A stretch of 64,000 bases of DNA, taken from Steroidobacteraceae bacterium. Its GTDB lineage: Bacteria > Pseudomonadota > Gammaproteobacteria > Steroidobacterales > Steroidobacteraceae. The notes beneath the pieces are model-generated. The model ran no database searches. It saw only the letters and a list, made by a program, of their open reading frames with translations, and was not told where the DNA came from. Of the stretch, positions 44,279 through 64,000 are shown piece by piece; positions within the stretch are counted from its first letter, which is position 1; each line of letters opens with the position of its first letter. The position numbers and the translations under genes were made by a program. The DNA lies in the NCBI GenBank assembly GCA_027531255.1, contig JAPZRU010000007.1, positions 186,001-250,000 on the forward strand, written 5' to 3'.

Positions 44279-45217
44279 GTGAGCCTGATCGAGAGAGCCA
44301 TCCAGCGCGTACGCGACGGCGCGCCGCACGCGGGCACGTCGTTTCCGGCGTTCGCCGGGGTGCGTGCAACGCGTGCGATCCGTCCTTCCGAGGGGGCCGA
44401 CGGACTGGCGGTCGAGTCGATCGACGCCGCCCCTGAGCCGCGTCGGGTCGTCGCGATCGATCGCGTGGCGCTCGCGGACGCCGGGCTGCTGCCGCCGCCC
44501 GCGGAGGCCGCGCGCTTCGCGCGGCAGTACCGGCGCGTGAAGTTCCCGCTGATCGAGGCGTTGCGCGATCGCGCGGTGGCACCCAGGGGAAACCTCATCC
44601 TCATCGCCAGCGCGCTGCCGGGCGAGGGCAAGACCTTCACCGCGACGAACCTCGCGCTCAGCCTCGCGCGCGAGCGCGACGTGGAGGTGCTGCTGGTCGA
44701 CGGCGACGTCGCGAAGCCGCAGATCAGTGCGGCGCTCGGCCTGGGCGACGAGCCGGGACTGATCGATGCGCTCGCCGACGCGTCGCTCGACGTCGCGTCG
44801 CTGATCGTGGGGACCGACGTGCGGCACCTCGGCGTGCTGCCGGCGGGCCGGGCGCACGAGGACAGCGCGACCGAGTTGCTGTCGAGCGCACGGATGAAGG
44901 ACCTGCTGGCGCGGCTGGTCGCGTCGCGTCCGAACCGCCTGGTCGTGTTCGACTCGCCGCCGCTGCTCGCCACGACGGAGTCGCACGTGCTGGCGCGACT
45001 CGCCGGGCAGATCGTGCTCGTCGTGCGCTCGGGCGAGACGCCTCGCGCGGCGGTGCTCGCGGCGGTGCACACGCTCGGGGACCATCGGCCCATCGGCGTC
45101 GTGCTGAACCACGTGCGCCGCGAGACCGCCGGCTACCACGGCTACGGAGCCTATGGCGGCTACGGCCGCGAACGGGCCGACGACGGCGAGCCCGTGACGG
45201 ACGAGCGGACGCAGTGA
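44279..45217 (+). CDS. XrtA-type cytoplasmic tyrosine autokinase (BY-kinase)
   Basis: 312 residues from GTG 44279, chosen because VSLIERAIQRV matches the usual MSLIEKAL start and a GAGG ribosome site precedes it. Walker A SALPGEGKTF (111-120), A' VLLVDGDVAKP (138-147) and Walker B RLVVFDSPPLL are present. The tail GYHGYGAYGGYGRE supplies a cluster of Tyr residues for autophosphorylation. Such kinases pair with Wzz-like chain-length proteins (here at 52290) to control exopolysaccharide assembly. The sequence matches the PEP-CTERM/XrtA-associated subfamily by recall. Confidence 0.88.
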   Translation: MSLIERAIQRVRDGAPHAGTSFPAFAGVRATRAIRPSEGADGLAVESIDAAPEPRRVVAIDRVALADAGLLPPPAEAARFARQYRRVKFPLIEALRDRAVAPRGNLILIASALPGEGKTFTATNLALSLARERDVEVLLVDGDVAKPQISAALGLGDEPGLIDALADASLDVASLIVGTDVRHLGVLPAGRAHEDSATELLSSARMKDLLARLVASRPNRLVVFDSPPLLATTESHVLARLAGQIVLVVRSGETPRAAVLAAVHTLGDHRPIGVVLNHVRRETAGYHGYGAYGGYGRERADDGEPVTDERTQ

Positions 45218-45321
45218 GGCGCATCCGGTAGCGCGCGACGCTGCGGTCCGCGGGCCGCCGGGGCGCCACGGGGGATCGCGGCAGAGGAAGGCATCGAACC
45301 GGTGCAGGGAGGCATCGCACG

Positions 45322-47238
45322 ATGTGCGGCATTTGCGGCCAGTACCACTACGCGGGCGGCAGACCGGTCGCGCGCGCGACGGTCGAGGCGATGACGGCCG
45401 CGATCGCCCATCGCGGACCGGACGACGCCGGCCATCACTTTGCGCCGGGCTTCGGCCTCGGTTTCCGCCGGCTGTCGATCATCGACCTCGCCGGCGGTCA
45501 CCAGCCGATGGCCGACGCGGACGGCACCGTGCACGTCGCGTTCAACGGCGAGATCTACAACTTCCGAGAACTGCGACGCGAGCTCGAGGCCGCCGGCCAT
45601 GCGTTCCGGACCCGTTCGGACACGGAGGTCATCGTCCACGGCTACCGGCACTGGGGCACGGGCGTGCTCGACCGGCTCGACGGGATGTTCGGGCTCGCGA
45701 TCTGGGACGCACCGCGCCGTCGCCTGGTGCTCGCTCGGGACGCCGCGGGCATCAAGCCCGTCTACTACCGCGTCGACGGCGGCACCGTGACCTTCGGTTC
45801 GGAACTGCGCGCGATCCTCGCCGCGCTGCCCGCGCACCCGGAGCTCGACCTGCAGGCGCTGAACCTGTTCCTGCGCTATCGCTACGTGCCGGCGCCGCTG
45901 ACGCCGTACGCCGGAATCCGCAAGCTCGCGTCCGGCACGATGGCGGTGTTCGAGGATGGCGGCTGGCGCGTCGAGCGCTGGCGTCGACCTGCCGCTGCAA
46001 TCGATCGCGCGATCCCGTCCGATGGCGAGGCCGTAGAAGAACTGCTCGCCGTCTACGATCGCGCACTCGAGCGCCACCTCGTCGCGGACGTGCCGGTCGG
46101 ACTGCTGCTGAGCGGCGGCGTCGATTCGGGGCTGCTGCTCGCCCTGATGAGTCGGCGCGGGCGTGGCTGGCCGACGTACACGGTCGGTTACGGTCGCCAA
46201 GCCTACGCCGACGACGAACTCGCGGACGCGGCCGCCACCGCGCGGACGTTCGGCGCACGACATACGGAAGTGCGCATCGATCGCGCCGGCTTCGAGGCCG
46301 CGCTCGCGAAGGCCGTCGCCGTGGTCGAGGAGCCGGTGGCCGCTTCCTCGATCGTCCCGATGTGGTTCGTCTGCGCGCGGGCGCGCGAGGACGTAAAGGT
46401 GGCGCTCGTGGGGCAGGGTCCCGACGAGCTGTTCGGCGGCTACAGGCGTCACCTGGGCGTGCACTACGGCGCGTGGTGGCGCCGCACTCCGCCGTGGCTG
46501 CGGGCCGTGATCGAGGGCGGCGTGCAGCGACTGCCGCGCACGGAGACCCTGAAGCGCGGCGCGGGCGCGCTCGCGACGCCCGACCGCCTCGAACGCTATC
46601 GGGACGTGTTCTCCGTTCTGCCGGGTCCGGCCGTCGACCGGCTGTTCCGCCCGGGACTGCTCGAGAGCGGCGCCGGCGACCGCGTCTGCGAGCTCTGGGC
46701 CGAGGTCGCGCCGGAGGCCTGCGACGCGGACGAACTGGGCGGTTTCCAGGCGCTCGAGCTCCGCTCGTCGCTGCCCGACGAACTGCTGCTGTATGCGGAC
46801 AAGCTGTCGATGGCCCACGGGCTCGAGGTGCGCGTGCCGTATCTCGACCGCGAGATCGTCGACTACGCGGCGCGCCTGCCGGCGTCGTTCAAGATCCGTC
46901 ACGGCCGGCGCAAGTGGCTGCACCGCCGCGCCTGCGAGCGCCTGCTGCCCGCGGAGATGCTGGCGCGGAAGAAGCGCGGCTTCGCGGTCGACGCGGTGGA
47001 CCGCTGGTTCCGCGAGTCGCTCGACGGGAAGCTCGGCGCCTACCTGCTCGATCCCGCCGCAGTCCTGTACCGGTACCTCGATCCGGCGCCGGTCTCGCGA
47101 CTGCTCGACGAACATCGAGCCGGTCGGCACGACCGTCACAAGATGCTGTTCAGCCTCGTCGTGCTGGAGGAGTGGCTGCGCACGTGCGCCGCCGCTTCCG
47201 CAACGCGGCGGCCGGCGCCGGCGCTCGTGGGGACCTGA
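45322..47238 (+). CDS. AsnB-type glutamine amidotransferase of the exopolysaccharide locus
   Basis: 638 residues. The class II glutaminase nucleophile Cys2 is intact (MCGICGQY), with AHRGPDD, RLSIIDL and FNGEIYNF. The synthetase domain has the ATP-pyrophosphatase loop LLLSGGVDSG (about 263-272) and GQGPDELFGGY. In polysaccharide clusters such proteins amidate a sugar carboxylate, using glutamine ammonia, rather than making asparagine. Context (XrtA-type kinase before, glycosyltransferase after) supports that. The C-terminal tail past 610 is low complexity. Confidence 0.85.
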   Translation: MCGICGQYHYAGGRPVARATVEAMTAAIAHRGPDDAGHHFAPGFGLGFRRLSIIDLAGGHQPMADADGTVHVAFNGEIYNFRELRRELEAAGHAFRTRSDTEVIVHGYRHWGTGVLDRLDGMFGLAIWDAPRRRLVLARDAAGIKPVYYRVDGGTVTFGSELRAILAALPAHPELDLQALNLFLRYRYVPAPLTPYAGIRKLASGTMAVFEDGGWRVERWRRPAAAIDRAIPSDGEAVEELLAVYDRALERHLVADVPVGLLLSGGVDSGLLLALMSRRGRGWPTYTVGYGRQAYADDELADAAATARTFGARHTEVRIDRAGFEAALAKAVAVVEEPVAASSIVPMWFVCARAREDVKVALVGQGPDELFGGYRRHLGVHYGAWWRRTPPWLRAVIEGGVQRLPRTETLKRGAGALATPDRLERYRDVFSVLPGPAVDRLFRPGLLESGAGDRVCELWAEVAPEACDADELGGFQALELRSSLPDELLLYADKLSMAHGLEVRVPYLDREIVDYAARLPASFKIRHGRRKWLHRRACERLLPAEMLARKKRGFAVDAVDRWFRESLDGKLGAYLLDPAAVLYRYLDPAPVSRLLDEHRAGRHDRHKMLFSLVVLEEWLRTCAAASATRRPAPALVGT

Positions 47239-47240
47239 AG

Positions 47241-48143
47241 ATGCCGCTCGACTACGTTCTCGTCACGCCCGCCCGCAACGAAGCCGCGTTCGTCCGGCGT
47301 ACGCTCGAGTCGGTGGTCGCGCAGACCGTCCTGCCGAAACGCTGGGTCGTCGTGAGCGACGGCTCGACCGACGACACCGACGCGATCGTCGAGGAGTACC
47401 GCCGAGGACGGTCCTGGCTCGAACTCGTGCGGCTGCCGCCGCGGACTGAGCGGGATTTCGCGGCCAAGGCGCGCGCGGTGGGCATCGGCTATGCGCGCGT
47501 GGCGCCGCTCGCGTTCGACGTCGTCGGCAACCTCGATGCCGACGTCTCGTTCGGCCCGGATTTCATGGAGTACCTGCTCGCGAAGTTCGCCGCGATGCCG
47601 CGGCTCGGCGTCGCCAGCACGTACTACCGCGAGGGTGATTTCCACTCGTGGCGCGACAGCTGGATCAGCGAGACGCACGTGACCGGGCAGGTCCAGCTGT
47701 TCCGCCGGGACTGCTTCGAGGAGATCGGCGGCTACGTGCCGAGCCGCGGCGGGGGCGTCGACTGGATCGCCGAGACGACGGCGCGGATGAAGGGGTGGGA
47801 GACGCGATCGTTCGGCGAGCGAACCTTCGAACACCACCGGAAGTCCGGCACGGCGGGGGGCAGCGAACTGCGCGCGCGCTTCGACTACGGCCTCAAGGAC
47901 TGGTTCCTCGGCGGCCACCCCCTCTGGCAGCTGGGTCGAGGTGCCTTCCAGATGACGAAGCGACCGTACGTCGTCGGCGGGCTCGGGCTGCTCGCGGGGT
48001 ACGCCTGGGGCTTCGTCACGCGCCGCGAGCGCGCGGTGTCGGACGAGTTGACGCGCTTCCACCGCGCCGAGCAGCTGGCGCGGCTGCGCCTGCTGGCGCG
48101 ACGGCCGCTCGACGCGGTGCGCCGCGCGTCGCGAGCGGCCTGA
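47241..48143 (+). CDS. Glycosyltransferase family 2
   Basis: 300 residues from ATG 47241, two bases after the preceding stop. GT-A fold motifs VTPARNEAAFVRRTLESV, VVSDGSTDDTDAIV (nucleotide binding) and NLDADVSF (DxD metal site) are present. The acceptor-side acidic region is seen as GGGVDWIAETTARMKGWE. It would add one sugar to the lipid-linked repeat unit at the inner membrane face. A short hydrophobic stretch near 245-262 may associate it with the membrane. Confidence 0.9.
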   Translation: MPLDYVLVTPARNEAAFVRRTLESVVAQTVLPKRWVVVSDGSTDDTDAIVEEYRRGRSWLELVRLPPRTERDFAAKARAVGIGYARVAPLAFDVVGNLDADVSFGPDFMEYLLAKFAAMPRLGVASTYYREGDFHSWRDSWISETHVTGQVQLFRRDCFEEIGGYVPSRGGGVDWIAETTARMKGWETRSFGERTFEHHRKSGTAGGSELRARFDYGLKDWFLGGHPLWQLGRGAFQMTKRPYVVGGLGLLAGYAWGFVTRRERAVSDELTRFHRAEQLARLRLLARRPLDAVRRASRAA

Positions 48144-48148
48144 ACCTC

Positions 48149-49642
48149 GTGGCAGCTCCGTCCTTCGTCGATCGCGCGGAGGCGCCGGCCCTGCGGGTCG
48201 TCCTGCGCTGCGCGGAGCGGCACCGGCGGCGAGCTCGGTACGCTTTCGACACGCTGCTGATGGCGGCCGGAGTTCCAGTGGAGTACGGCACGGTGCCGGC
48301 TCGCGACGGGCTCACTCTCGTCTACTCCGCTGCGCAGGACGTGCCCGGAGTGGATGAACGGCGCACCCTGATCTTGAGCCACGTGCCCGCGGCGTGGGAG
48401 CGTCTGGACGGCCGGACGGACCCTGATCGGCTCGCGACGGTCGACGGCCTGCCGGTGGTTCTCCCCGAGGCCGGCACCGAGCGAGCGGACGTGTCGTTCG
48501 ACCTGCCCGCCAACGCGTTCTACTTCCTGAGTTCCTGGTCCGAACGGCGCGCGCGCGGCGCGAACGGCGCTCGTGCGCTGTATGCGGACAGCGTGTACGC
48601 GCGGCTCGGCGTGCCGCAGGACGTGGTCGACCGCTACCTCGGGGCACTGCTCGCGCAACTGGCGCGCGTCGCGGAGCGGGCCGGCCTCGCATGGCCGGCG
48701 CCCGCCCGCTGGCCCGGCGGTGCCACGCACGCGGTGGTGCTCTCGCACGACGTCGACTTCCTGCCGGTTCGTCCGCTGGTCGACTCCGCGGTCCAGGGCG
48801 CGAAGACGCTGGCGCGCCATCTCGTCCGTCAGCGGGATCCCGCGAGCGCCGCGCGTGCAGTCGCCGGGCTGCTCGGCGCCGCGCTGCGCGGCCGTGATCC
48901 CTACGGCTGCGTGCCCGAGCTGATCGCGCGCGAGAGCGCCCTCGGTGTCCGCGCGTCGATCCAGGTGGCCGTCGCGCGTCGCCACCCTCGCGACGTCAAC
49001 TACTCCGTCGAGGATCCGCGCGTCGCCGCCTACCTGCGCGTCGTGAGGGACTCGGGCTTCGACCTCTGCCTGCACGGCAGCTACCGCTCCACCGAGGCGC
49101 CGGGGTGGTACGAGGCGGAGGTCGAGCGGCTCGCGAGTGCGCTCGGCCGCCCCGAGGGCTCGCGCCAGCACTATCTCGCGTTCGACTACGACGCGCTGTT
49201 CCGCGCCCAGGAGCGCGCCGGGATCCGCTACGACATGTCGGTGGGCTACCCGGACCATCCCGGCCCCCGCGCCGGCTTCTCGTTCCCGTACTTCCCGTAC
49301 TCCCTCGCCGAGGACCGACCCTACGACGTCGTCGAGATCGGGCTCGTGCTGATGGACGTGACCCTGCAGAGCTACCTGCGGCTCGATGCGCGCCGCGCCT
49401 GGGGCACGATCGAGGCCTGCCTCGCGGACCTGGCGGCCAAGGGCGGCGCCGCGTCGGTGGTCTGGCACCCGATCGTGTTCGGCAACGCGCGCGATCCGGG
49501 CTACGGCGAGCTCTGGTGGCGACTGGTCGACGCGGTCAGGGCGGCGGGCGGCGCCGCCACCGACGGGCGCACGGTGAACGCGTGGTGGCGCGCGCGTGCG
49601 TGCGCCTATCCGAGCTTCGCGCCGGCGGCGCGGGCGGCGTAG
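48149..49642 (+). CDS. Polysaccharide deacetylase-like protein of the exopolysaccharide locus
   Basis: 497 residues from GTG 48149. The first about 180 residues form a separate N-terminal domain (RYAFDTLLMAAGVPVEYGT..., LILSHVPAAWERLDG), resembling DUF7033. The second part carries the metal motif LSHDVDFLP (about residue 205), then HGSYRST (about 315) and WHPIVFGNARDPGY (about 445), the scattered motifs of NodB-type deacetylases in a divergent form. No signal peptide is seen, so it may act on lipid-linked or nucleotide sugars inside the cell, or be a pseudoenzyme. It starts 5 bases after the GT2 stop. Confidence 0.7.
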   Translation: MAAPSFVDRAEAPALRVVLRCAERHRRRARYAFDTLLMAAGVPVEYGTVPARDGLTLVYSAAQDVPGVDERRTLILSHVPAAWERLDGRTDPDRLATVDGLPVVLPEAGTERADVSFDLPANAFYFLSSWSERRARGANGARALYADSVYARLGVPQDVVDRYLGALLAQLARVAERAGLAWPAPARWPGGATHAVVLSHDVDFLPVRPLVDSAVQGAKTLARHLVRQRDPASAARAVAGLLGAALRGRDPYGCVPELIARESALGVRASIQVAVARRHPRDVNYSVEDPRVAAYLRVVRDSGFDLCLHGSYRSTEAPGWYEAEVERLASALGRPEGSRQHYLAFDYDALFRAQERAGIRYDMSVGYPDHPGPRAGFSFPYFPYSLAEDRPYDVVEIGLVLMDVTLQSYLRLDARRAWGTIEACLADLAAKGGAASVVWHPIVFGNARDPGYGELWWRLVDAVRAAGGAATDGRTVNAWWRARACAYPSFAPAARAA

Positions 49643-49644
49643 TC

Positions 49645-50880
49645 GTGGCCGCCGTGTTCATGGCTGCGTACACGAACTACCGGCGCGACCCGCGCGTTCG
49701 CCGCGAAGCCGAGGCGCTGGTCGAGGCGGGGCACGAGGTCACCTTCCTGGCCTGCCGACAGCCCGGCGAGCCCGACCACGAGCGGATCGCCGGGGTCGAG
49801 CTGCACAAGGTGGCCGGTGCGGGTCATGACCGGACGTCCGCGCTGGGCTACCTCTTCGGCTACGGGCGCTACTTCCTCGCGCTCGCGGCGCACCTGGCGC
49901 GTGCTCCGCGTCGCTACGACCTGATCCACGTCAACAACATGCCGGACTTCCTGGTGTTCGCGGCCTGGCTGCCGCGCCTGCTCGGCGTGCCCGTGATCCA
50001 CGACGTCCACGACCTGATGCCCGAGCTGTACCAGGAGAAGTTCGGCGTGCCGGCGTCGCACTGGGTCGTACGTGCCGTCCGGCAGCAGGAACGCTGGGCC
50101 GGGCGCTTCGCCAGCGCCGTGCTGACCGTCGAGGCGCGATTGCGCGAGACGCTGGCGACCCGCGGCATGCCCGCGGACAAGATCCACGTGCTGATGAACC
50201 TTCCCGACGACCGGATCTTCGCACGGCGTCCGCCACCGCCGCCCAGGGCCCCGGGTGCGCCGTTCGTGCTCGTCTATCACGGCACGCTCGCGCGCCGGCT
50301 AGGACTCGACGTCGCGATCGAGGCCGTGGCCCGCCTGCGGCCGCGCATCCCGGAGATCGAACTGCGGATATTCGGTGCCGGCGAGGAGCGCGCCACCCTG
50401 ATCGCGCTCGCGGCCGAGCTCGGACTCGGCGCGCACGTCACGTTCAGCGAGGGATTCGTGCCGGTCGAGCGCGTGCCGGCGCTGATCGCCGCTGCCGACT
50501 TGGGCGTGATCCCGCTGCGACGCTGCGCCGGCACCGACGTGATGCTGCCGACGAAGCTGCTCGAGTACGTGGCCGTCGGCATCCCCTGCGTCGTGCCCCG
50601 CACCCCGACCGTGGCGCGCTACTTCGATGCCGGGATGGTCGAGTTCTTCGCGGCCGAGGACGTCGACTCGCTGGCGGCCGCGATCCTGCGGCTGCACGCC
50701 TCGCCGGCGCGGCGGGCGGCGCTCGCCGAATGCGCCACGGAGCGCTTCGGTCGCCGCCACGCGTGGAGCGAGCACCGGAAATCGTACGTGCAGCTCGTGG
50801 AGGCGCTGCTGGCGCCGCGCGGGCGCACCTCGCTGCAGCCCACGTCGGAAGTCGAGCCCTCGAGGCGCACCGGGAGCTGA
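49645..50880 (+). CDS. Glycosyltransferase family 4
   Basis: 411 residues; GTG 49645 is two bases after the previous stop, and ATG 49660 is an alternative. GT-B fold: an N-terminal half (MAAYTNYRRDPRVRREAEALVEAGHEVTFLA) and a C-terminal donor-binding half with YHGTLARRLGLDVAIEAV, FSEGFVPVERVPALIAAADLGVIPL and MLPTKLLEYVAVGIPCV (the E-x7-E region). It would transfer a sugar from a nucleotide donor to the growing repeat unit. Confidence 0.9.
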   Translation: MAAVFMAAYTNYRRDPRVRREAEALVEAGHEVTFLACRQPGEPDHERIAGVELHKVAGAGHDRTSALGYLFGYGRYFLALAAHLARAPRRYDLIHVNNMPDFLVFAAWLPRLLGVPVIHDVHDLMPELYQEKFGVPASHWVVRAVRQQERWAGRFASAVLTVEARLRETLATRGMPADKIHVLMNLPDDRIFARRPPPPPRAPGAPFVLVYHGTLARRLGLDVAIEAVARLRPRIPEIELRIFGAGEERATLIALAAELGLGAHVTFSEGFVPVERVPALIAAADLGVIPLRRCAGTDVMLPTKLLEYVAVGIPCVVPRTPTVARYFDAGMVEFFAAEDVDSLAAAILRLHASPARRAALAECATERFGRRHAWSEHRKSYVQLVEALLAPRGRTSLQPTSEVEPSRRTGS

Positions 50881-50882
50881 CG

Positions 50883-52277
50883 ATGCCAGGAGACAGCCGC
50901 ATCACGGTCGTCGGTGGCGGTCGAATGGGACTGCCGCTCGCCTGCGCCTTCGCGAGCCGCGGCGCCGAGGTCACGGTCGCCGACGTGAACGCGGGCCTCG
51001 TCGCCAGGATCCACGCCGGCGCGTGCCCGTACGAGGAGCCGGAACTCGCCGCCCTGATGCGCGAACTGCACGTCGCCGGCCGGCTGCGTGCGACGACCCG
51101 CACCGCGGAGGCGGCGGCCGGTTCCGACGCCATCGTCGTGATCGTGCCGGCGCACCTGACGGCCGAGCGCGAGATCGATCTCGCGACGCTCGAGTCCGCG
51201 TCGGCGGACGTGGGTCGCGGCCTCCGTCCGGGAACGCTGGTCGTCTACGAGACGACCGTGACCGTCGGCGCGACGCGTCGCCGGCTCGTGCCGGTGCTGG
51301 AGGCGCGCAGCGGCCTCCGCGCGGGGCGCGACTTCCACGTCGCCTACAGTCCCGAGCGCGTCAAGGCGAATCTAGTGCTGCAGTGGCTCGGCACGACGCC
51401 GAAGGTGATCGGCGGTCTCGACGACGCGTCACGCGCGCGTGCCACCGCGTTCTACGCGCGTTTCCTCGGCGCGCCCGTCGACGACGTCGGCACGCTCGAG
51501 GCCGCGGAGATGACCAAGCTCGCCGGCATGCTGTACCGCGACGTCAACATCGCGCTCGCGAACGAGCTCGCGGCGTTCTGCGAGCTCGCCGGGATCGACT
51601 TCGAGCGCGTCCGGGTGGCCGCCAACGCGGACGGGGAGGGGAGCCTGCTGCTGGCGGGCATCGGCGTCGGCGGGCATTGCACGCCGGTGTATCCCTACTT
51701 CCTGACGCGCGAAGCGCGGCGGCTCGGGTTGCCGCAGCGGATCGCGGAGGCTGCACGCGAGATCAACGACGCGCAGCCCGGTCGTCACCTCGAGCGCGTC
51801 GCGGCCGGCTGGCGCCCGCTCCGGGGCGAACGCGTGCACCTGCTCGGACTCGGCTTCCGGCCGGGCGTGAAGGTGGACGTGCTGAGCCCGGCCTACGCCC
51901 TGCGCGATCACCTGCGGCGCGCCGGCGCCCACGTCACGATCGAAGATCCCTGCTACGCGGACGACGAACTGCGGCGGGCCGGCTTCGTGCCGGGCCGGGC
52001 GGTCGACGCCGCGCTCGTCGTGCTCAATACCGCGCACCCGCCGTTCCTGGCCCCGGATTTCGCGGGCTGGCGGCGAGCCGGTGTCGAGGTCGTGCTGGAC
52101 GGCCGCAACGCCTGGCGACAGCAGGACGTCGAGGCCGCCGGGCTCCTCTACTTCGGCGTGGGGCGCCGCCCCGCGGAGCCCCTCGCGCGCAACTCGGGCG
52201 GCGATTCCGGCATCCGCTCACGCGACCTCGTCCCGCCCGGCGGCGAGCAGCGCGTCGCCACCGACGCGCAACACTGA
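50883..52277 (+). CDS. Nucleotide-sugar 6-dehydrogenase (WecC-like)
   Basis: 464 residues from ATG 50883 with GGGAG six bases upstream. NAD-binding GGGRMGLPLACAFASRG, middle-domain AYSPERVKANLV and the catalytic Cys in GVGGHCTPVYPYFL (about 262) are intact. The HC-PVYPY form is closest to UDP-ManNAc dehydrogenases (WecC) rather than UDP-glucose dehydrogenases. It would supply a uronic-acid donor, whose carboxylate the adjacent amidotransferases could modify. No WecB-like epimerase is in the window. The last 30 residues are low complexity. Confidence 0.88.
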   Translation: MPGDSRITVVGGGRMGLPLACAFASRGAEVTVADVNAGLVARIHAGACPYEEPELAALMRELHVAGRLRATTRTAEAAAGSDAIVVIVPAHLTAEREIDLATLESASADVGRGLRPGTLVVYETTVTVGATRRRLVPVLEARSGLRAGRDFHVAYSPERVKANLVLQWLGTTPKVIGGLDDASRARATAFYARFLGAPVDDVGTLEAAEMTKLAGMLYRDVNIALANELAAFCELAGIDFERVRVAANADGEGSLLLAGIGVGGHCTPVYPYFLTREARRLGLPQRIAEAAREINDAQPGRHLERVAAGWRPLRGERVHLLGLGFRPGVKVDVLSPAYALRDHLRRAGAHVTIEDPCYADDELRRAGFVPGRAVDAALVVLNTAHPPFLAPDFAGWRRAGVEVVLDGRNAWRQQDVEAAGLLYFGVGRRPAEPLARNSGGDSGIRSRDLVPPGGEQRVATDAQH

Positions 52278-52289
52278 CGGAGAGCTCCG

Positions 52290-53867: not shown

Positions 53868-54365
53868 TCCGCGCGCCATGCCGTCGTGGGCACCGTCCCG
53901 GGCGTCGCCGATCACGCGGGCCGGCACGCCGGCCACGACGGCGTGATCGGGGACGTCGCGCGTCACCACCGCTCCCGCGCCGACGAGCGCGCCGACGCCG
54001 ATGGTCACCCCGGCCACGATCGTCGCATTGGAGCCGATCGACGCCGTCCGCCGGACGAGCGTCGGCTCCACGGACCAGTCGGACTCGCCCTGCGGCGAGC
54101 CGTCGTCGTTCGTGGCGCGCGGCCGGCGATCGTTGGTGAACATCACGCCGTGCCCGACGAATACCTCGTCCTCGATCGTCACGCCCTCGCAGACGAATGT
54201 ATGCGAGGAGATCTTGCAGCGCGCGCCGATCGTGGCGTTCTTCTGGATCTCGACGAACGCGCCTATGCGCGTGTCGTCGCCGATCCGGCAACCGTAGAGG
54301 TTGACCAGCGACGGGTGGTGGATCCTCACGTCGCGTCCCAGCGCGACGGTGTCGGCGATCGGCAT
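53667..54365 (-). CDS. Hexapeptide-repeat (left-handed beta-helix) acyltransferase
   Basis: 232 residues from ATG 54365, preceded by GGAGG. Residues about 5-155 form hexapeptide repeats (IHHPSLVNLYGCRIGDDTRIGAFVEIQKNATIGARCKISSHTFVCEGVTIEDEVFVGHGVMFTND), of the WbbJ/WlbB-type sugar N- or O-acetyltransferase kind. The helix ends at VVAGVPARVIGDA. The remaining 70 residues are charged and do not fold like the family; they run antisense across the 3' end of the chain-length gene for 201 bases, probably because the original stop was lost. It probably acetylates an amino sugar of the repeat unit. Confidence 0.85.
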   Translation of the reverse strand: MPIADTVALGRDVRIHHPSLVNLYGCRIGDDTRIGAFVEIQKNATIGARCKISSHTFVCEGVTIEDEVFVGHGVMFTNDRRPRATNDDGSPQGESDWSVEPTLVRRTASIGSNATIVAGVTIGVGALVGAGAVVTRDVPDHAVVAGVPARVIGDARDGAHDGMARGSGERRSGHDAQHARQGEHQRDRGAGDEATPPACGRELRVEADHRDLAEERQPRRVGDITRAAEHRP

Positions 54366-55609
54366 CGTGACGCCTCCTGTTCCGTGGAGTCCGCGCTCGG
54401 GCGCGCGGCCGCGCCGCAGGGCGCACCGGTGGACTTTGCACGGTCCGTGCCGTGCGACGAGTCGGCTCCGGGGGACGGAGCGCGGAAATGCAGCGCGGGG
54501 CCGCGCCCAGCCGCGCCGAGTTCGCGGACCACGCGCTCGGCCAGCGCGAGCGCGGCCGTGAGGCCCGGCGACTCGATCCCGAACAGGTGCACGAGACCGG
54601 CGACGCCGTGCGCCGCGGGTCCGTCGATGCGGAAGTCCGCCGGGGGCAGGCCCGGCGCCTGCAGTTTCGCGCGGATGCCGACGAAATCGGGCACCAGGCG
54701 CTCCGGATCGATGCGCGGGTAGTAGCGGGCGATCGCCGCCGCGAACTCGGCGCGGCGGTCGCGGCCGAACTCGTAATCGCGGCGCGGGCTCCACTCGACG
54801 TCGGGCCCGAAGCGGACGCGGCCCGCGAGGTCGAGCGTCACGTGCGTGCCGAGGCCCGCGGATTCCGCCACCGGGTAGACGAGTCTCGCGAACGGGGCGC
54901 GTCCGCGCAGCGCATAGTAGTGTCCGCGCGCATGGTGGACCGCGGGGAAGTCGACGTCGGCATCGACCTCGATGCGGCGCGCGACGTCGATGGCGTCCAG
55001 GCCCGCCGAGTTCACGAACTCGCGGCAGTCGAGCTGCGTCGCCTCTGCGTCGTCGAGTGCGACGCGAAACCCGCTGCCGGTGCGCTCCGCGCGCGCGAAG
55101 CCGGTGCGTAGGACGACCTGGCCGCCGGCCGACTCGAGGTCGCCCTGCAATGCCAGCATCAGTTCGTGTACGTCGACGATCCCGGTCGTCGTGGAGTGGA
55201 GCGCGCCCACGCATCGCAACTCGGGTTCGAGGCGCGCGACCTGCGGGGGATCGAGCCAGTCGACGCGCCCGGCCCCGTTCGCCGCCGCGGTCGCCGCGTA
55301 GCGCTCGAGCGCGCCGATTTCCCCGGGCGTCGTCGCTACCACCAGTTTCCCGCAGCGACGGTGCGCGATGCCGCGCTCCCGGCAGTACTCGTACAGCAGC
55401 GCCTTGCCGCGCACGCAGGACTCGGCCTTCAGCGAGCCGGGGGTGTAGTAGAGGCCGGCGTGGATCACGCCCGAGTTCCGGCTGCTGGTCTCGCAGCCGA
55501 TGCCGGCATGGCGCTCGAGCACGACGACCTCGCGCCCGGCCGCCGCGAGCGCGCGCGCGATCGCGAGGCCGACCACTCCTGCGCCGACGACGACGGTGTC
55601 CGTGTCCAT
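54326..55609 (-). CDS. LhgO-like FAD-dependent oxidoreductase
   Basis: 427 residues. The N-terminal Rossmann motif VVVGAGVVGLAIARALA ends in VVLERHAGIGCETSSRNSGVIHAGLYY, the signature of L-2-hydroxyglutarate dehydrogenase/oxidase proteins. The C-terminal GPDVEW, VPDFVGIRAKL and GIESPGLTAALALAERV match DAO/LhgO. The last 45 residues are low complexity and overlap the acyltransferase start by 40 bases. The same fold oxidises various 2-hydroxy acids and amines. In this locus a role on a sugar acid or amino sugar is possible, but the family's known substrate is L-2-hydroxyglutarate. Confidence 0.82.
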   Translation of the reverse strand: MDTDTVVVGAGVVGLAIARALAAAGREVVVLERHAGIGCETSSRNSGVIHAGLYYTPGSLKAESCVRGKALLYEYCRERGIAHRRCGKLVVATTPGEIGALERYAATAAANGAGRVDWLDPPQVARLEPELRCVGALHSTTTGIVDVHELMLALQGDLESAGGQVVLRTGFARAERTGSGFRVALDDAEATQLDCREFVNSAGLDAIDVARRIEVDADVDFPAVHHARGHYYALRGRAPFARLVYPVAESAGLGTHVTLDLAGRVRFGPDVEWSPRRDYEFGRDRRAEFAAAIARYYPRIDPERLVPDFVGIRAKLQAPGLPPADFRIDGPAAHGVAGLVHLFGIESPGLTAALALAERVVRELGAAGRGPALHFRAPSPGADSSHGTDRAKSTGAPCGAAARPSADSTEQEASRCRSPTPSRWDAT

Positions 55610-55618
55610 GCGAGGACT

Positions 55619-57022
55619 CTAGCGGCCGCCGCGCGCGCGGGGCGCGGCGACCGGCCGGCGCTGCGGGTACACCGGCGGCCGCTCGTAAGGGCCTGCATGC
55701 ACGCTGCCGCGCTGCGTCGCCGCCGCATGGCGGCCAGCGCGCTCGACCGCGACGAGGAAGAACAGCGTCCACACGAGGTGCGTGCCCTTGAAGGCCGCCT
55801 CGGTGTAGTTGAAGGCCAGGATCGCGAACAGGCACGCGATCCTGAAGTCGGCCAGTCCGAACTCCGGAGTCAACTGTGCACGGATGCGGCGGAAGGTATC
55901 GGCGATCACGACGGCCAGCAGGGCGATGCCGACGAAGCCGAGATTCAGCCACGTCTCGAGGTACCCGTTGTGCGCCTGGTTCGGGTGCCACCACCAGTGG
56001 TCCCAGAGCGTCTTCAGTCGGTCGCCGAGCCAGAAGCCCTCGAAGCCCGCGCCGAACAGCAGGTTGGGCTGCAGGGCGATCACGTCCGCCCACAGCGCCG
56101 TGCGGTCGGTCAGGGTCGGGTCGCGGCCGAGCGCCGCGATGACGCGCGCGTACGGATCGAAGAGCAACTCCGCGATGCCGGCGAGGACGACCGCAGCGAC
56201 GACCCACGTGCCCAGCTTCGCCTTGTCCACCAGCCCGAATCTGAGCGCCAGCAGCGTGCCCGCGCCGATCGCCAGCGTCGCGAGCGAGGTGGCGCTGCGG
56301 GCGGAGTAGAGCAGCCAGCCGGCCAGCGCCAGGAACAGCAGGCTGAGCGCGATCTCGCGCCGCCGCTCCTGCCGCGCAGCGGCACCGGCGGCCAGCGCGT
56401 TCCACACGAAGAACAGCCCGGACACCATGCACAGGTAGCCGAGATCGTTCTTGGTCAGCCCGACGCCGTGGTTCGTCGGCTCGCCGGTCCAGGCGTTGTA
56501 GCCACGGCCGTACTCTGGCAGGTACTTGATCAGCAGTACCGACGCCGGCAGCAGCACGTACGCGCAGCGCTTCAGCACGATTCGCACGGCTTCCACGGGC
56601 CGTGGGTCGGTGAGCACGACCAGCGCCATCACCGGGTGCCCGAGCGCCTTGATCCAGCGCTTGAACGACGTGAACGGATACTCCGACCAGAGTACCGACG
56701 CGAGTCCGTAGAGCGCGAATACCGCCAGCCACCGGTTCGCCCGCCACAGCGCCGCCCAGTCGGGCCGTCGGCGCACGAGCACGACGATGCCGAGGACGAT
56801 CAGCAGCCCGAAGCAGGCGGCGTCGACCGGGCTGCCGTCGCTGCCGGCGGCGTCCCCGCCGCCGCCGAGGCCCAGCCACTGCGAGACGAAGCGCGACCCG
56901 ACGACCAGCAGCCAGAGCACGGGAATCCACAGGGCCGGGCTCGACTCGCGCAGCCGCGTGTCGCCGGCGAGCAGGGCGACGACGACGACGAGCGTGATCA
57001 GCATGGCGACGACAGTTGGCAT
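55619..57022 (-). CDS. O-antigen ligase/polymerase family membrane protein
   Basis: 467 residues. About ten to twelve transmembrane segments, with the large periplasmic loop (LFGAGFEGFWLGDRLKTLWDHWWWHPNQAHNGYLETWLNLGFVG) typical of the Wzy_C/WaaL/ExoQ family; the H-N-x-Y-L-E motif is the family hallmark. It would either polymerise repeat units or ligate polymer to an acceptor. Its N-terminal half differs from the XrtA-specific ligase, so I call it a general ExoQ-like polymerase/ligase. The C-terminal 40 residues are polar. Confidence 0.85.
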   Translation of the reverse strand: MPTVVAMLITLVVVVALLAGDTRLRESSPALWIPVLWLLVVGSRFVSQWLGLGGGGDAAGSDGSPVDAACFGLLIVLGIVVLVRRRPDWAALWRANRWLAVFALYGLASVLWSEYPFTSFKRWIKALGHPVMALVVLTDPRPVEAVRIVLKRCAYVLLPASVLLIKYLPEYGRGYNAWTGEPTNHGVGLTKNDLGYLCMVSGLFFVWNALAAGAAARQERRREIALSLLFLALAGWLLYSARSATSLATLAIGAGTLLALRFGLVDKAKLGTWVVAAVVLAGIAELLFDPYARVIAALGRDPTLTDRTALWADVIALQPNLLFGAGFEGFWLGDRLKTLWDHWWWHPNQAHNGYLETWLNLGFVGIALLAVVIADTFRRIRAQLTPEFGLADFRIACLFAILAFNYTEAAFKGTHLVWTLFFLVAVERAGRHAAATQRGSVHAGPYERPPVYPQRRPVAAPRARGGR

Positions 57023-57036
57023 CGGGTGGGCTCGTC

Positions 57037-58284
57037 CTAGCGCTCCGCGAGCACGTTCGCGTATGCGCCGGCCGTCAGCCGCGCGCCCGTGCTCCAGCCG
57101 TTCCGTTCGCGCGCAAGGGCCGCGATCCCCGCGCGACTCGCCGCACCCTCCCGGTAGAGAGGCCCCTCGAAGAAGGTTCTCAGCGCTCGCGCCAGATCCG
57201 CCGGATCGCGCGGGCGGCAGACGTGGCCGGTCGCACCTTCGACGACCTCGGCGGCGAGAGCGCCGACGTCGGTGACGATCACCGGTAGTCCGAATCCATA
57301 GGCCAGGAACAGCACGCCGCTCTGGAAGATCTCCGTGTACGGCAGCACGAGCACGTCCGCGGCCTCGAACCAGGCTTCGACGTCGGTGTCGGGCACGTGG
57401 CCGAGCGACACCCGCACGCGCGACCGCAAGGCCGCCCGGCCGAGAACGGGCTGCAAAGCGGACCAGTAGGCGTCGCAGCCCTCCTTGACCCGGCCGGCGA
57501 CGAGCAGCAGCAGGTCGTCGAGTTCGGGCGCGAGCCGTTCGACCGCTCCCAGGAGGTATTCGAGGCCCTTGTAGGGCGCGATCTGCCCGAAGAACAGCAC
57601 GGTCCGATGCGCCGGGTCGATGCCGAGCCGCCGGCGCGCCGCGTCGCGGCCGAGACCGGTGCGCGGCACGGCGTCGTTCACGCCGAACGGAATCACGCCG
57701 ACGCGACCCGCCGGCACGCCGAACTCCTCGATCAGTTCCCGCTTCATCGGCTCCGTGTGCACGAACACGTGATCGCACAGCCGGTACTGGCACCGCAGCG
57801 TCAGCCGGTTCAGCGGGCCGTCGCATCCGTCGCGTCGGGCGCGGTTGACGTTGTGCGCGGTCAGCAGCACGCGGCGCCCGAGCATCCGGTACCACGCCAT
57901 CAGCAGCGTGCGGTCGAACCACTCGACCTTGTTGTTCCACAGCACGTGGAACAGCCGGGGCTCGGCCCGGACCGCGTAGGCGAGCAGCCGTACGTAGTAG
58001 CGTGCCAGGCGCCAGACCTTCGCGGACCACTGGGCCGACGGGTCCTGATCGCCGCGCAGGTTCAGGAAACGGATTCGCGGGTCGCTGCGGACCTCGGGAC
58101 GGTCGAGATCGTCGCTGCCGACGAAGTCCACGTGCACGCCGATGGCGGCGAGCGCGCATGCGAGCCCGCACGCGTAGTGCGGATCGTTGCCCGCCGTCAG
58201 CAGCGCGACGCGGAGTACGCGGTCGGTTGCCGTCGCCGCCGTGCGATGCTTCCAGGGCGCCGCATCGGTGGGCTGCAGGCTCAT
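57037..58284 (-). CDS. Glycosyltransferase family 4
   Basis: 415 residues. N-terminal half with LLTAGNDPHYACGLACALAAIGVHVDFVG and HVLWNNKVEWFDRTLLMAWYRMLGRRVLLTAHNVN. Donor-binding half with LFFGQIAPYKGLEYLLGAVERL, SLGHVPDTDVEAWFEAADVLVLPYTEIFQSGVLFLAYGFGLPVIVTDVG (the family E-x7-E region in variant form). The start at ATG 58284 overlaps the upstream amidotransferase stop by 4 bases (ATGA). It would add a sugar to the repeat unit. Confidence 0.88.
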   Translation of the reverse strand: MSLQPTDAAPWKHRTAATATDRVLRVALLTAGNDPHYACGLACALAAIGVHVDFVGSDDLDRPEVRSDPRIRFLNLRGDQDPSAQWSAKVWRLARYYVRLLAYAVRAEPRLFHVLWNNKVEWFDRTLLMAWYRMLGRRVLLTAHNVNRARRDGCDGPLNRLTLRCQYRLCDHVFVHTEPMKRELIEEFGVPAGRVGVIPFGVNDAVPRTGLGRDAARRRLGIDPAHRTVLFFGQIAPYKGLEYLLGAVERLAPELDDLLLLVAGRVKEGCDAYWSALQPVLGRAALRSRVRVSLGHVPDTDVEAWFEAADVLVLPYTEIFQSGVLFLAYGFGLPVIVTDVGALAAEVVEGATGHVCRPRDPADLARALRTFFEGPLYREGAASRAGIAALARERNGWSTGARLTAGAYANVLAER

Positions 58285-60110
58285 GCGCACTCCGCGTCGC
58301 ACGCCCGGACCGGCGGTGCGAGCAGCAGCCTGTCGATCGCTTCCAGCGTGAGAACGACGTGGAGTGCGTGCACGCCGTCGCACTCGCCGCGCCGATGCGC
58401 CGCGGCGACCGCGGCGGGTGCGTCCCCACGCCAGAACCCGAGCCGCCGCACGCGCGGATCGTTCGCGACGGCCTCCACGTGGCCGGCGAGCTCGACCTGG
58501 AACCAGCGCCGGTACGAAAGAAACCTGTGCCGTCCGAGCAGGGACGTGCGGCGGAGCAGCGGCAGCAACGGGGCGATCGCGCGCAGGCGGCGCGGCAACT
58601 CGTCGCTGTCGACGTAGTCGAGCTTCGCCGTCAGGACCGCCGCTCCACGCCGCAGTCGCGCACGCAGCGCGCCGTCGCCGGCGCGAAGCCCGCCGTCGGT
58701 CGGGATCGCCGCGAGCGCGGGAGCGAGCGCCCGCACGACCTGGAGCGACGGCCCGGCGCTGAGCCGCGACTCCGGCGGCGCGCGGTACGCGAGGCGTACC
58801 AGTTCGTCGTCGAGGTACGGCGTGCGGCACGTCAGTTGCGATCGCGCGGCCGCCAGCGTGCCGTAGAGGTGCCAGGGGATCTCGCGGAAGGCGGCCGCGG
58901 TGACCGGATGTACGCGCCGTTCCTCGGGCGTCGCCTCCGCCAGCCGCGCCTCGAAGTCCGGCGCGACGAAACCCGCGGGCAGCGATCTCGGCTTCAGCGT
59001 CGACACGCCGCGCAGCACCTCGCTGCCGTAGTTGCCGGTCAGTCGGACCGGTGCCAGTTCGCGCGCGAGGCGACTGAGAGGCAGTTCGTGCGCGCCGGTC
59101 GCTCCCGCGCAGCCGTCGCTGATCTCGACGGCAGTGTCGACGTGCTCGCCGTACCGAGCTAGGAAGTCGGGCGCGAGCCGCAGCGTGTGGTGCTCGAGCC
59201 CGCACTCGGCCGCGACGCGACGGCCGATGCGAACGTCGAGGGTTTCGCCGACGGCGCCCGCGTAGGTGTAGCAGACCGGCCGGCGAGTGCCGGTACGCAG
59301 GCACGCCATGATCATCCGCGTGTCCAGTCCACCGGTGATCGAGATGCCGACCGCCCCGCCTTCCGCGCCGGCCTGTAGCGGCGCGCGGCGGCGCAGCGTC
59401 TCCGCAAGGTCCTCCGCGAAAGCCTTCGGCGTCGCGACCGGCAACGTCTCCCAGTCCTCCGGCCGAAACCAGCGCGTGCGTGCGAGGCGCCCGGACGCCT
59501 CGACGACCCACGCGGAACCGCCGGGCAGGAGGCGAACGTCGCGGAAGAGCGTCCGGCCGTCGCGGGTGCTGCCGTAGCGCAGGAACTGCGCGACCCCGAA
59601 CTCGTCGAACGCGCGCAGTGCGGGCAGGACCCGCAGCAGCGCCTTGGCTTCGCTGGCGAACCACACGAGCCCGTCGCGCTCGTGCACGTACAGACGTTCG
59701 CTGCCGTAGCGGTCGTTGAACAGCACCGCACGCCCGCGCACCGGGTCGACCACGAGGCCGCAGTGGAGCCCGTTGAGCCCGTCCACGAACCCCGGACCGC
59801 GCGCCCGATAGCGTGCGAGCACCGCTGCGGGGTCGGTCGTGCCGCCGTCTGCCGTGGGCTTCGCTTCGCCGTCCGGCCGACACTCGCCCGCGAACAGCAG
59901 CCGCGCGCCGTCCGGCTCGCGGTGCAGGCAGGCGCGTTCGGCGAACGAGCCGCGGTGCGCCGTCCAGGCCGCGTGGACCCCGAGCGTGGGTGCGTGGAGC
60001 AGGCCCGACGCATGGAAGGGTTCGCGATGCAGCGCGCCCAGCATCGCGACCAGCGCGGTGCCGAGTACGGCGGGATCGCCGTGACCGAGAACTCCTGCGA
60101 GGCCCGGCAC
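58281..60110 (-). CDS. AsnB-like amidotransferase with degenerate glutaminase active site
   Basis: 609 residues from GTG 60110, supported by a GGAGG site eight bases upstream. The start reads Met-Pro-Gly-Leu-Ala-Gly, so the class II glutaminase nucleophile Cys2 is replaced by Pro. FNDRYGSERLYVHE and FASEAKALLRVLP show that the domain is otherwise recognisable. The synthetase half has ISITGGLDTRMIMA (about 257-270), a variant of SGGxDS. It therefore probably uses free ammonia or another acceptor amine, or is a non-amidating ATP-dependent ligase. It is the second such protein in the locus and overlaps the downstream GT4 gene by 4 bases. Confidence 0.8.
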   Translation of the reverse strand: MPGLAGVLGHGDPAVLGTALVAMLGALHREPFHASGLLHAPTLGVHAAWTAHRGSFAERACLHREPDGARLLFAGECRPDGEAKPTADGGTTDPAAVLARYRARGPGFVDGLNGLHCGLVVDPVRGRAVLFNDRYGSERLYVHERDGLVWFASEAKALLRVLPALRAFDEFGVAQFLRYGSTRDGRTLFRDVRLLPGGSAWVVEASGRLARTRWFRPEDWETLPVATPKAFAEDLAETLRRRAPLQAGAEGGAVGISITGGLDTRMIMACLRTGTRRPVCYTYAGAVGETLDVRIGRRVAAECGLEHHTLRLAPDFLARYGEHVDTAVEISDGCAGATGAHELPLSRLARELAPVRLTGNYGSEVLRGVSTLKPRSLPAGFVAPDFEARLAEATPEERRVHPVTAAAFREIPWHLYGTLAAARSQLTCRTPYLDDELVRLAYRAPPESRLSAGPSLQVVRALAPALAAIPTDGGLRAGDGALRARLRRGAAVLTAKLDYVDSDELPRRLRAIAPLLPLLRRTSLLGRHRFLSYRRWFQVELAGHVEAVANDPRVRRLGFWRGDAPAAVAAAHRRGECDGVHALHVVLTLEAIDRLLLAPPVRACDAECA

Positions 60111-60134
60111 GGCGTCAGCCTCCGCGGGCCGTGC

Positions 60135-60899
60135 TCAGGCGTGGCACAGCGGCACCACGTCGACGTGCCGCTCGCCGGGCATCGGCACCCGCAGTGGGCA
60201 CTCGGGCGTCGGCCAGCGCGTCCGATCTTCGTAGACGTACGGCTGGCATGCCTCCGGCAGGCGGTCGGAGCCGATGCGTTCGACGCGCGTGAAATGCCGC
60301 TCGTAGCGGTCGAAGTAGTCGAGGCCCGGCGCGCGGACGTGACCGAACTCGGCGGGATTGGGGGCGTGATACTCGACGGTCCGCACGCCGACGACGGGCA
60401 CCGGCAGGATCGCGACGCCGCCGGGCCGCAGGATGCGCCGCACCTCCGCGAGCGCGCGATCGTCGTCGGGCACGTGCTCGAGTACGTGCGAGGCGAAGAC
60501 GAGATCCCAGCTCGCGTCGTCGAACGGCAGCTTCTGCAGGTCGACGTGGTGGTCGACGCCGGGCGCATCGAGATCCGCGGTCTCATAGCGACCGAAGCGA
60601 GGCGGCAGCCGCGTCTCGAAGAACGGCTCGGGCGCAAAGTGCAGCATCGCGGCCGAGCGGGTGTCGAGTTGCGCGAACAGCCGCTCGAACACGAGCCACT
60701 GCGCGCGGTGCCGCTCGAGCGCGCCGCAGCGCGGGCATTTGGCGTGCCGTCGCCGACCGGTTGGCGCGTCCACGTCGCGGAACGGCCCCGAGTACCGGCA
60801 GACGGGACAGGTGAAGGTCGCCTTGTCGCGGTTGGCGAGCCGGAAGACCGGCAGCCTCAGCGCGTCGACCGCGCGTCGCACACGTTGCCTGTAGGTCAC
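60135..60899 (-). CDS. SAM-dependent methyltransferase with N-terminal zinc-ribbon
   Basis: 254 residues from GTG 60899, supported by GGGAG about eight bases upstream. Two CxxC pairs (FTCPVCRYSGPF and CPRCGALERHR) form a zinc-ribbon at about residues 31-60. The methyltransferase domain shows MLHFAPEPFFE, YETADLDAPGVDHHVDLQKLPFDDASWDLVFASHVLEHVPDDDRAL and LRPGGVAILPVPV. This ribbon-plus-Methyltransf_11 type is common in polysaccharide clusters and probably methylates a sugar or sugar-linked group. Confidence 0.85.
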   Translation of the reverse strand: MTYRQRVRRAVDALRLPVFRLANRDKATFTCPVCRYSGPFRDVDAPTGRRRHAKCPRCGALERHRAQWLVFERLFAQLDTRSAAMLHFAPEPFFETRLPPRFGRYETADLDAPGVDHHVDLQKLPFDDASWDLVFASHVLEHVPDDDRALAEVRRILRPGGVAILPVPVVGVRTVEYHAPNPAEFGHVRAPGLDYFDRYERHFTRVERIGSDRLPEACQPYVYEDRTRWPTPECPLRVPMPGERHVDVVPLCHA

Positions 60900-63196: not shown

Positions 63197-64000
63197 TCAC
63201 GGGGGCGCCCCGTCCACGACGCCACCGGACGTGCCGCGCGCCCGCGACCGACGCTGCACGGCGTACCAGCGGCCCCGAAGTGCCGCGAGCCCGCGCCGCA
63301 CGCGGGGCGGCAGTCGCGCCGCGAGCCCGCGGTGCAGGCCGAGCGCGAGCGCGAGTCGCCCGCGCGCGTTCAGCGGCACCCAGCACCGTGCGTACTCGAG
63401 CCGCTCGAAGCCGTTGTGGCGCTTGAACTGCAGCAGCGAGTCGCCGCTGCCGCCGCCGTAGTCGAACCTGTCGTAGACGAGCAGGCGTGCGCCACGCGCG
63501 GACGCGACCGCGACCGACTTGGCGATCAGCGCGTTAGATACCGGGAGTTCGCGGCGCGACAGTCGCGCGATGATGTGCATCGTGTTGGCGGTGGCGCCTG
63601 CATAGACGAGCTTGACGAACCCGACGAGTTCGTCGCCCAGGTAGGCGCCGACGAACTCCGAGCGGTCCGGAAAGGTCTCGTGGATGCGCTGCAACTCCGC
63701 GAGACTCCTGCGGTAGTGCCAGAACGGCTTGCCCTGGCGTACGGGGCTCTCGTCGTAGATCTCCTGGATCCCGCGCAGCAGCACCTCGTCGAGCGGGACC
63801 ACCCTCAGTGTCACGCCGGCGCGTTCGGCCTTGCGGACGAGCGCACGCGTCTTCGAGCCGATCTGCCGCGTCCACCAGTGGTCGTAGCCGCGCAGCTCGA
63901 TCGCGGCGCAGTTCTCGGTCTCGCGCAAGTGCGCCGCGGGATCGGGGCCGTCCGGAGGCCGGCAGGGGAACGTGAACACGTCGGCGCCTGCCCGCGCGAG
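63197..64000 (-). CDS. GNAT/FemAB-like protein (5' end at window edge)
   Basis: At least 260 residues; the frame is open through the window edge, so the true start is probably outside, although GTG 63979 is a possible start. The sequence WWTRQIGSKTRALVRKAERAGVTLRVV, then RQGKPFWHY and FVGAYLGDELVGFVKLVYAGATANTMHIIARLS, resembles FemAB/GNAT-like transferases seen in exopolysaccharide clusters. Residues DRFDYGGGSGDSLLQFKRHNGFERLEY are consistent with the fold. The last 60 residues are Arg-rich and poorly conserved. It would transfer an acyl or aminoacyl group. Confidence 0.65.
   Translation of the reverse strand, partial: LARAGADVFTFPCRPPDGPDPAAHLRETENCAAIELRGYDHWWTRQIGSKTRALVRKAERAGVTLRVVPLDEVLLRGIQEIYDESPVRQGKPFWHYRRSLAELQRIHETFPDRSEFVGAYLGDELVGFVKLVYAGATANTMHIIARLSRRELPVSNALIAKSVAVASARGARLLVYDRFDYGGGSGDSLLQFKRHNGFERLEYARCWVPLNARGRLALALGLHRGLAARLPPRVRRGLAALRGRWYAVQRRSRARGTSGGVVDGAPP

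Follow-up and report, generated by a model that had tools for sequence, protein, structure and literature searches.

Why should a polysaccharide locus carry a kinase and a chain-length protein of the XrtA subfamilies and yet no exosortase? The question is raised by a stretch of 64,000 nucleotides (hereafter the window) from a Steroidobacteraceae bacterium (assembly GCA_027531255.1, contig JAPZRU010000007.1, here C29, positions 186001-250000). A preliminary description, made from the letters of the window, recognized there a BY-type tyrosine autokinase and a chain-length protein separated by five sugar-modifying and transfer genes, with a second arm running back on the other strand. It proposed that the locus either continues past 64 kb or is an XrtA-less variant that kept only the export parts. 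The present analysis shows that the locus continues, and that the only exosortase of the genome lies on another contig. With a probability of about three in four, we read it as an accessory polysaccharide locus of the Wzx/Wzy type in an exosortase-positive bacterium; the kinase and the chain-length protein of the locus are of XrtA lineage, and it lacks an exporter of its own.

Extent and gene content of the locus

The genome comprises 4.2 Mb in 40 contigs, C29 being 437,716 bases long. Gene models were obtained with a simple codon-usage caller, completed by one open reading frame (49639-50880) taken from the list of such frames, and were submitted to NCBIfam and Pfam family scans. These models and scans confirm the coordinates given previously, the five genes between kinase and chain-length gene, all on the same strand, and the arm on the other strand. 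They also bear out the assignment of both proteins to XrtA subfamilies, TIGR03018 and TIGR03007 being their best families (Table 1). In window coordinates, the locus covers about 32 kb, from 44279 to about 76460, of which 12.5 kb lie past the window. The strands switch between 53867 and 54326, which are 458 bases apart. Within the reverse arm, intergenic gaps do not exceed 77 bases, save one of 2297 bases housing a beta-helix gene. This arm is followed by genes for two proteins named by eye from their N-termini, one a MarC-like membrane protein, the other resembling malate dehydrogenase.

Models for initiating transferase, flippase and polymerase all pass their cut-offs. The proposal of an accessory Wzx/Wzy locus is made because flippase, initiating transferase, two DegT proteins, epimerase, acetyltransferase and Gfo/Idh protein share the same reverse arm. 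As in Wzx/Wzy capsule or exopolysaccharide loci, these components are accompanied by a chain-length protein, a BY-kinase and glycosyltransferases; the difference is that the outer-membrane exporter is missing. Inside the window, genome-wide profile searches returned no exosortase, no over-cut-off PEP-CTERM tail, no PF02563 exporter and no initiating transferase, as had been stated. The reported lack of a flippase holds for the 19 proteins of 33.8-64 kb, none of which matched a flippase model (NCBIfam for all, Pfam also for 10 of the 19), the part from 1 to 33.8 kb lying outside the scan. Neither PrsK, PrsT nor the regulator was found among the scanned genes of the locus.

The kinase displays a Walker B motif, matched by pattern, a Walker A motif (PGEGKT) read by eye, and four tyrosines within its last 45 residues; the A-prime pattern was not matched. 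It stays below the TIGR03018 cut-off, which can be considered strict since just 21 of the 148 genomes surveyed below pass it.

Opposite strands and the 458 bases between them could also mean that two unrelated loci happen to abut, one per strand. This is improbable, because both M. psychrophilus and a genome of the same family (G098) hold homologues from both arms in one place. In G098, a segment of 20.2 kb on contig C88 contains homologues of the VimE-like protein (55%), the GT4 glycosyltransferase (66%), the dehydrogenase (72%), the chain-length protein (49.5%), the DegT protein (70-73%, in two separate stretches) and the Gfo/Idh protein (74%). Since homologues of genes from within and past the window sit so close together, this cluster ties the two sets to each other. 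The same contig encodes a homologue of the flavin adenine dinucleotide (FAD)-dependent oxidase (58%), at a distance of about 8 kb from its Gfo/Idh gene. A fused AMP-binding, phosphopantetheine and hexapeptide protein (L077:5335-7434) was also observed in G098, between the sugar module and the chain-length gene.

Table 1. Genes of the locus and its flanks, in window coordinates; positions above 64000 lie past the window.
Feature	Coordinates	Strand	Basis
Secreted 1313-aa protein, DUF4082 + Big_5	40148..44089	-	PF13313 350.8 bits, PF13205 230.5 bits
BY-type tyrosine autokinase	44279..45217	+	Best family TIGR03018, 210.9 bits, below cut-off 230.65
Asparagine-synthase-like amidotransferase (AsnS1), WbpS-like	45322..47238	+	TIGR01536 passed; TIGR03108 best match, below cut-off
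GT2 glycosyltransferase	47184..48143	+	Family scans
VimE-kind deacetylase	about 48278..49642	+	NF053580 sole NCBIfam match, 61.6 bits, cut-off 440
GT4 glycosyltransferase	49639..50880	+	Family scans
Uridine diphosphate (UDP)-sugar 6-dehydrogenase	50883..52277	+	TIGR03026 over cut-off
XrtA-lineage polysaccharide chain-length protein	52290..53867	+	TIGR03007, 376.6 bits, over cut-off 278.85
FAD-dependent oxidase	54326..55609	-	Nearest L-2-hydroxyglutarate oxidase, 216.8, cut-off 299
Membrane polymerase or ligase	55619..57022	-	Wzy_C (PF04932) over cut-off
GT4 glycosyltransferase	57037..58284	-	Family scan
Second asparagine-synthase-like protein (AsnS2)	58281..60110	-	PP-loop kept, Cys2 lacking
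S-adenosylmethionine-dependent methyltransferase	60135..60899	-	Family scans
Secreted beta-helix protein	61245..63152	+	Pfam Beta_helix 24.6, just under cut-off 25.9
FemAB/GNAT-like acyltransferase	63197..64183 (window end cuts at 64000)	-	TIGR03019 19.7 bits, cut-off 260.35
Methyltransferase	64183-64878	reverse arm	
Three transferases	up to 68620	reverse arm	
Wzx flippase	68646-70142	reverse arm	PF13440 and PF01943 over cut-offs
DegT aminotransferase	70139-71314	reverse arm	
Epimerase	71311-72288	reverse arm	
Initiating sugar transferase	72298-73467	reverse arm	PF02397 over cut-off
Hexapeptide acetyltransferase	73516-74205	reverse arm	
Second DegT	74205-75323	reverse arm	
Gfo/Idh dehydrogenase	75372-76460	reverse arm	

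Exosortase and export parts elsewhere in the genome

The sole exosortase match of the genome is found on contig C40 (35613-36287), with 140.7 bits (cut-off 105.55). An EpsI domain is present in this protein as well. It passes the general model TIGR02602; among the exosortase models, the XrtA model TIGR03109 scores best with it, at 180.5, without passing its own cut-off of 208. C40 moreover encodes, all over cut-off, two TIGR03027 exporters (70.6% identical to one another), a TIGR03006 deacetylase, PrsK, PrsT, an EpsB_2 transferase and a TIGR02915 response regulator, which we take to be PrsR. Behind the second exporter, a truncated TIGR03007 remnant of about 55 residues was noticed (L004:4631-4798); it resembles the window copy (54.5%) and the copy on contig C30 (51.9%) to much the same degree. 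Eight of the 11 PEP-CTERM matches in the genome pass the cut-off, none of them in the window; controls passed it in none of 14 genomes.

These results bear on the XrtA-less variant that the preliminary description had envisaged. Nothing in the genome itself speaks for it. Among relatives, 12 of the 60 genomes in which TIGR03007 passes its cut-off lack an exosortase that passes its own; weak exosortase matches occur in three of these, and completeness reaches at least 90% in seven of the remaining nine. It had already been noted that genomes without PEP-CTERM can contain relatives of the exopolysaccharide partners, though not of EpsH (PMC1569441). Against such a variant stand the C40 exosortase, the eight PEP-CTERM proteins and the XrtA-type partners over cut-off, which refute it here unless C40 is a contaminant; contamination of the genome is listed as 0.09. 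The variant therefore has very little left in its favour, and a genome devoid of PEP-CTERM tails, which would have gone with it, is not what we observe. As to the sequence past 64 kb, where it had been suggested to look for XrtA, a PrsE-like exporter and a sugar-phosphate transferase, only the initiating transferase was found, C29 carrying neither an exosortase nor a PF02563 exporter. A standard XrtA cluster immediately downstream, named beforehand as the finding that would speak against an unusual system, is not there: its place is occupied by the rest of the locus.

The other polysaccharide parts are likewise distributed. TIGR03007 matches occur on C30 (455.9 bits), in the window (376.1 bits in this genome-wide search), on C26 (203.7 bits, below cut-off) and as the truncated C40 remnant (61.9 bits). 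There are four PF02563 exporters (one on C26, one on C30, two on C40) and three PF02397 initiating transferases (one each on C26, C40 and C29, the last just past the window). This exosortase-positive genome thus harbours several polysaccharide loci, the present one among them. Because it spreads such parts over C26, C29, C30 and C40, assigning a kinase or chain-length gene to an XrtA subfamily does not locate an exosortase in the same locus. Compared with the XrtA/PEP-CTERM cluster (PMC1569441), the bacterium shares the over-cut-off TIGR03007 protein, the TIGR03018-like kinase, the TIGR03108-like amidotransferase and, elsewhere in the genome, the exosortase and the Prs proteins. However, the locus lacks exosortase and TIGR03027 exporter, and its kinase and chain-length genes are in reversed order, 7.25 kb apart.

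Separation of kinase and chain-length gene among relatives

How unusual is this arrangement? In a survey of 148 genomes, that of the window included, TIGR03007 and TIGR03018-type matches were paired by contig and strand. TIGR03007 passes its cut-off at 63 places; at 59 of them, a TIGR03018-type kinase is encoded on the same strand of the contig. The chain-length gene precedes the kinase within 1 kb in 58 of these 59 pairs; the single exception is the window, with the order reversed and 7250 bases between the matches. For the other four places (in genomes G074, G078, G098 and G103), the matches listed include no kinase on that contig and strand; the places of G078 and G103 are at contig edges, and the G074 match ends at position 420 of 498. 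Counted by genome, over-cut-off matches were obtained in 60 for TIGR03007, in 61 for the exosortase model and in 48 for both (odds ratio 23, ignoring kinship). An over-cut-off exosortase is found on the same contig as 35 of the chain-length places, 0.2 to 8.9 kb distant. The split of the two genes is real and unusual among relatives. The remark on layout in the preliminary description was well founded, and the layout is rarer than its reader could tell from the sequence alone.

In a tree of 36 chain-length proteins, the window copy is sister to the G098 copy (support 100/99), not to the C30 copy of its own genome. A separate XrtA-independent clade of TIGR03007 proteins was considered but finds no support: the 16 exosortase-linked and nine exosortase-less rows interleave, six changes being needed for each grouping (84 and 81 of 500 shuffles are as low; 11 of the 36 rows are ungrouped). 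In the window and in its sister G098, the chain-length gene of this lineage lacks a kinase gene as its immediate partner and stands beside a recurring VimE-like/GT4/dehydrogenase module.

The predicted sugar and its proposed export

The gene set suggests an amidated amino-uronic sugar. Among PDB sequences, the predicted 6-dehydrogenase comes nearest to CalS8 and to a UDP-ManNAc-uronate dehydrogenase. The predicted acetyltransferase comes nearest to VioB and perosamine N-acetyltransferases, 3mqg, the WlbB structure, giving just 6.4e-7. The DegT protein matches the WbpE chain 3nyu at 2.4e-96, three other PDB sequences, QdtB included, scoring higher. For the Gfo/Idh protein, the best NCBIfam model is NF040723 (UDP-GlcNAc 3-dehydrogenase; 158.7, cut-off 450), and PDB matches are mixed. 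The VimE-like protein aligns to profile positions 65-411 of 431 in NF053580 and has no Pfam match; its SHDVD and HGS motifs would make it CE4-like. Its gene probably starts upstream of the called start, since the in-frame residues encoded there, at 48146-48280, are similar to the N-terminal part of the M. psychrophilus homologue. AsnS1 carries the glutaminase nucleophile Cys2. AsnS2 is without this residue and, therefore, probably does not use glutamine; the M. psychrophilus AsnS2 homologue (L035:1225-3048) likewise has the PP-loop motif and no Cys2. Such Cys2-less proteins perhaps couple a carboxylate with some amine that is not ammonia. No Pfam match was found for the FemAB-like protein. In a PDB sequence search, it gave no match at E 1, and the VimE-like protein gave one match at chance level (E 0.77).

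From these assignments, a pathway can be proposed. The 6-dehydrogenase, Gfo/Idh, DegT and acetyltransferase proteins would produce an activated amino- or diamino-uronic acid, which the VimE-like deacetylase, the amidotransferases, the methyltransferases and the FemAB-like protein may trim or amidate. The initiating transferase and the glycosyltransferases would assemble the repeat on undecaprenyl phosphate, Wzx would flip it and the Wzy_C protein would polymerise it. Finally, the XrtA-lineage chain-length protein and the kinase would set the length and drive export, through an outer-membrane exporter supplied from elsewhere in the genome.

BY-kinases and TIGR03007 chain-length proteins are associated with capsule or exopolysaccharide export. 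The presence of both, the kinase with its C-terminal tyrosines, is what stands against the most serious alternative, a lipopolysaccharide (LPS) O-antigen locus. There, the Wzx/Wzy product would be ligated to the lipid A core, no exporter would be needed and the TIGR03007 protein would act as Wzz. Wzx, Wzy_C and initiating transferase would serve such a locus equally well, and neither the locus nor C29 holds an exporter. We consider an O-antigen locus unlikely, while giving it more weight than any other alternative.

Several observations weigh against an accessory Wzx/Wzy locus as proposed here. The lack of a PF02563 exporter on C29 leaves export unexplained, and the product could be an LPS O-chain. 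The kinase, TIGR03108, VimE and TIGR03019 scores are all under curated cut-offs, and AlphaFold models of the VimE-like and FemAB-like proteins (from four and two sequences) are unusable, with pLDDT (predicted local distance difference test) values of 41.9 and 36.9. In 38 kb of G098, no match to GT2, AsnS1/AsnS2, Wzy, Wzx, FemAB, initiating transferase or kinase was obtained at E 1e-8. In the Methylobacter luteus stretch described below, nothing matched the dehydrogenase, the kinase, the chain-length protein or the FemAB-like protein. In M. psychrophilus, neighbouring chain-length-like (230.9 bits, TIGR03007) and kinase-like (195.7 bits, TIGR03018) genes, both below cut-off, adjoin in the usual order, so that the sugar module is not always accompanied by the split.

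The sugar module is a recurring but rare unit. A search of genome contigs with the VimE-like protein led to four loci. In M. luteus, the order AsnS1-GT2-VimE-like-GT4 is repeated (56-64% identity), and homologues of Wzx, Wzy and the beta-helix protein are also present. M. psychrophilus has homologues of FemAB (31%), AsnS2 (31%), GT2, Wzy, the VimE-like protein, GT4 and the dehydrogenase. A Methylococcaceae metagenome-assembled genome (MAG) has VimE-like and GT4 genes on a 3.2 kb contig, and a Hydrogenedentota MAG shares less. All four genomes behind these loci have an over-cut-off exosortase. The VimE-like model matches four of the 148 surveyed genomes, two strongly (that of the window and G098) and two weakly; three of the four have an over-cut-off exosortase, too few genomes for the co-occurrence to be used. 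As sole query, the VimE-like protein matched one of 40 genomes, its own.

Could the sugar be the one to which exosortase joins PEP-CTERM proteins? The idea was raised by Veith et al. (2020; PMC7468200), who suggested that the acceptor for exosortase might be produced by the FemAB proteins of PEP-CTERM bacteria that are related to VimA; among the later papers listed, no other joins exosortase or PEP-CTERM with VimA, Wbp or a linking sugar. A locus making a Wbp/Vim-like aminoacylated amino-uronamide as acceptor would agree with the grouping of VimE-, WbpE-, WbpB-, WbpA-, WbpS- and FemAB-like genes, and with the over-cut-off exosortase both in the bacterium's own genome and in all four genomes of the VimE-like loci. 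However, a VimE-like model found in four of 148 genomes (two weak), against 61 of 148 for exosortase, cannot mark a general acceptor. Moreover, no exosortase is seen in G098 (74% complete), one of the two strong carriers; VimE and TIGR03019 scores are low, the M. psychrophilus FemAB homologue has no TIGR03019 match, and the acetyltransferase is VioB/PerB-like rather than WbpD-like. Such a function is thus very unlikely. About as improbable is its extended form, in which an aminoacylated, amidated amino-uronic sugar on the exported polymer would, in this lineage, be the acceptor of the C40 exosortase, and the uncoupling of chain-length protein and kinase part of the reassignment. With the VimE-like/GT4/dehydrogenase module, the speculation in print about an amino-acid-modified sugar as exosortase acceptor becomes open to a concrete test.

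With the Wbp/Vim pathway of Porphyromonas gingivalis (PMC7468200), the locus has in common relatives of WbpA, WbpS and VimE, and perhaps of WbpB, WbpE and VimA, lying together. It differs in scores below the curated cut-offs where models exist, in an acetyltransferase of the VioB/PerB kind and in the second, Cys2-less, asparagine-synthase-like protein. A full Wbp/Vim pathway was rejected on account of this acetyltransferase and of VimE and TIGR03019 scores (61.6/440 and 19.7/260.35 bits) far below cut-off.

Some further genes deserve comment. The FAD oxidase gene is 9 bases from the Wzy_C gene. That the oxidase recycles 2-hydroxyglutarate in support of a WbpB-type enzyme was considered and dropped: the product of P. 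aeruginosa WbpB is the D form (PMC8651671), and the oxidase is nearest to L-2-hydroxyglutarate oxidase. The gene at 40148-44089 is divergent from the kinase gene, and its membership of the locus is unsure; a TGDDHG motif in its product resembles polysaccharide deacetylases. The beta-helix protein is possibly a polysaccharide-acting enzyme. A 30% homologue of it lies inside the M. luteus locus (L036), and other beta-helix-like proteins are encoded nearby in G098.

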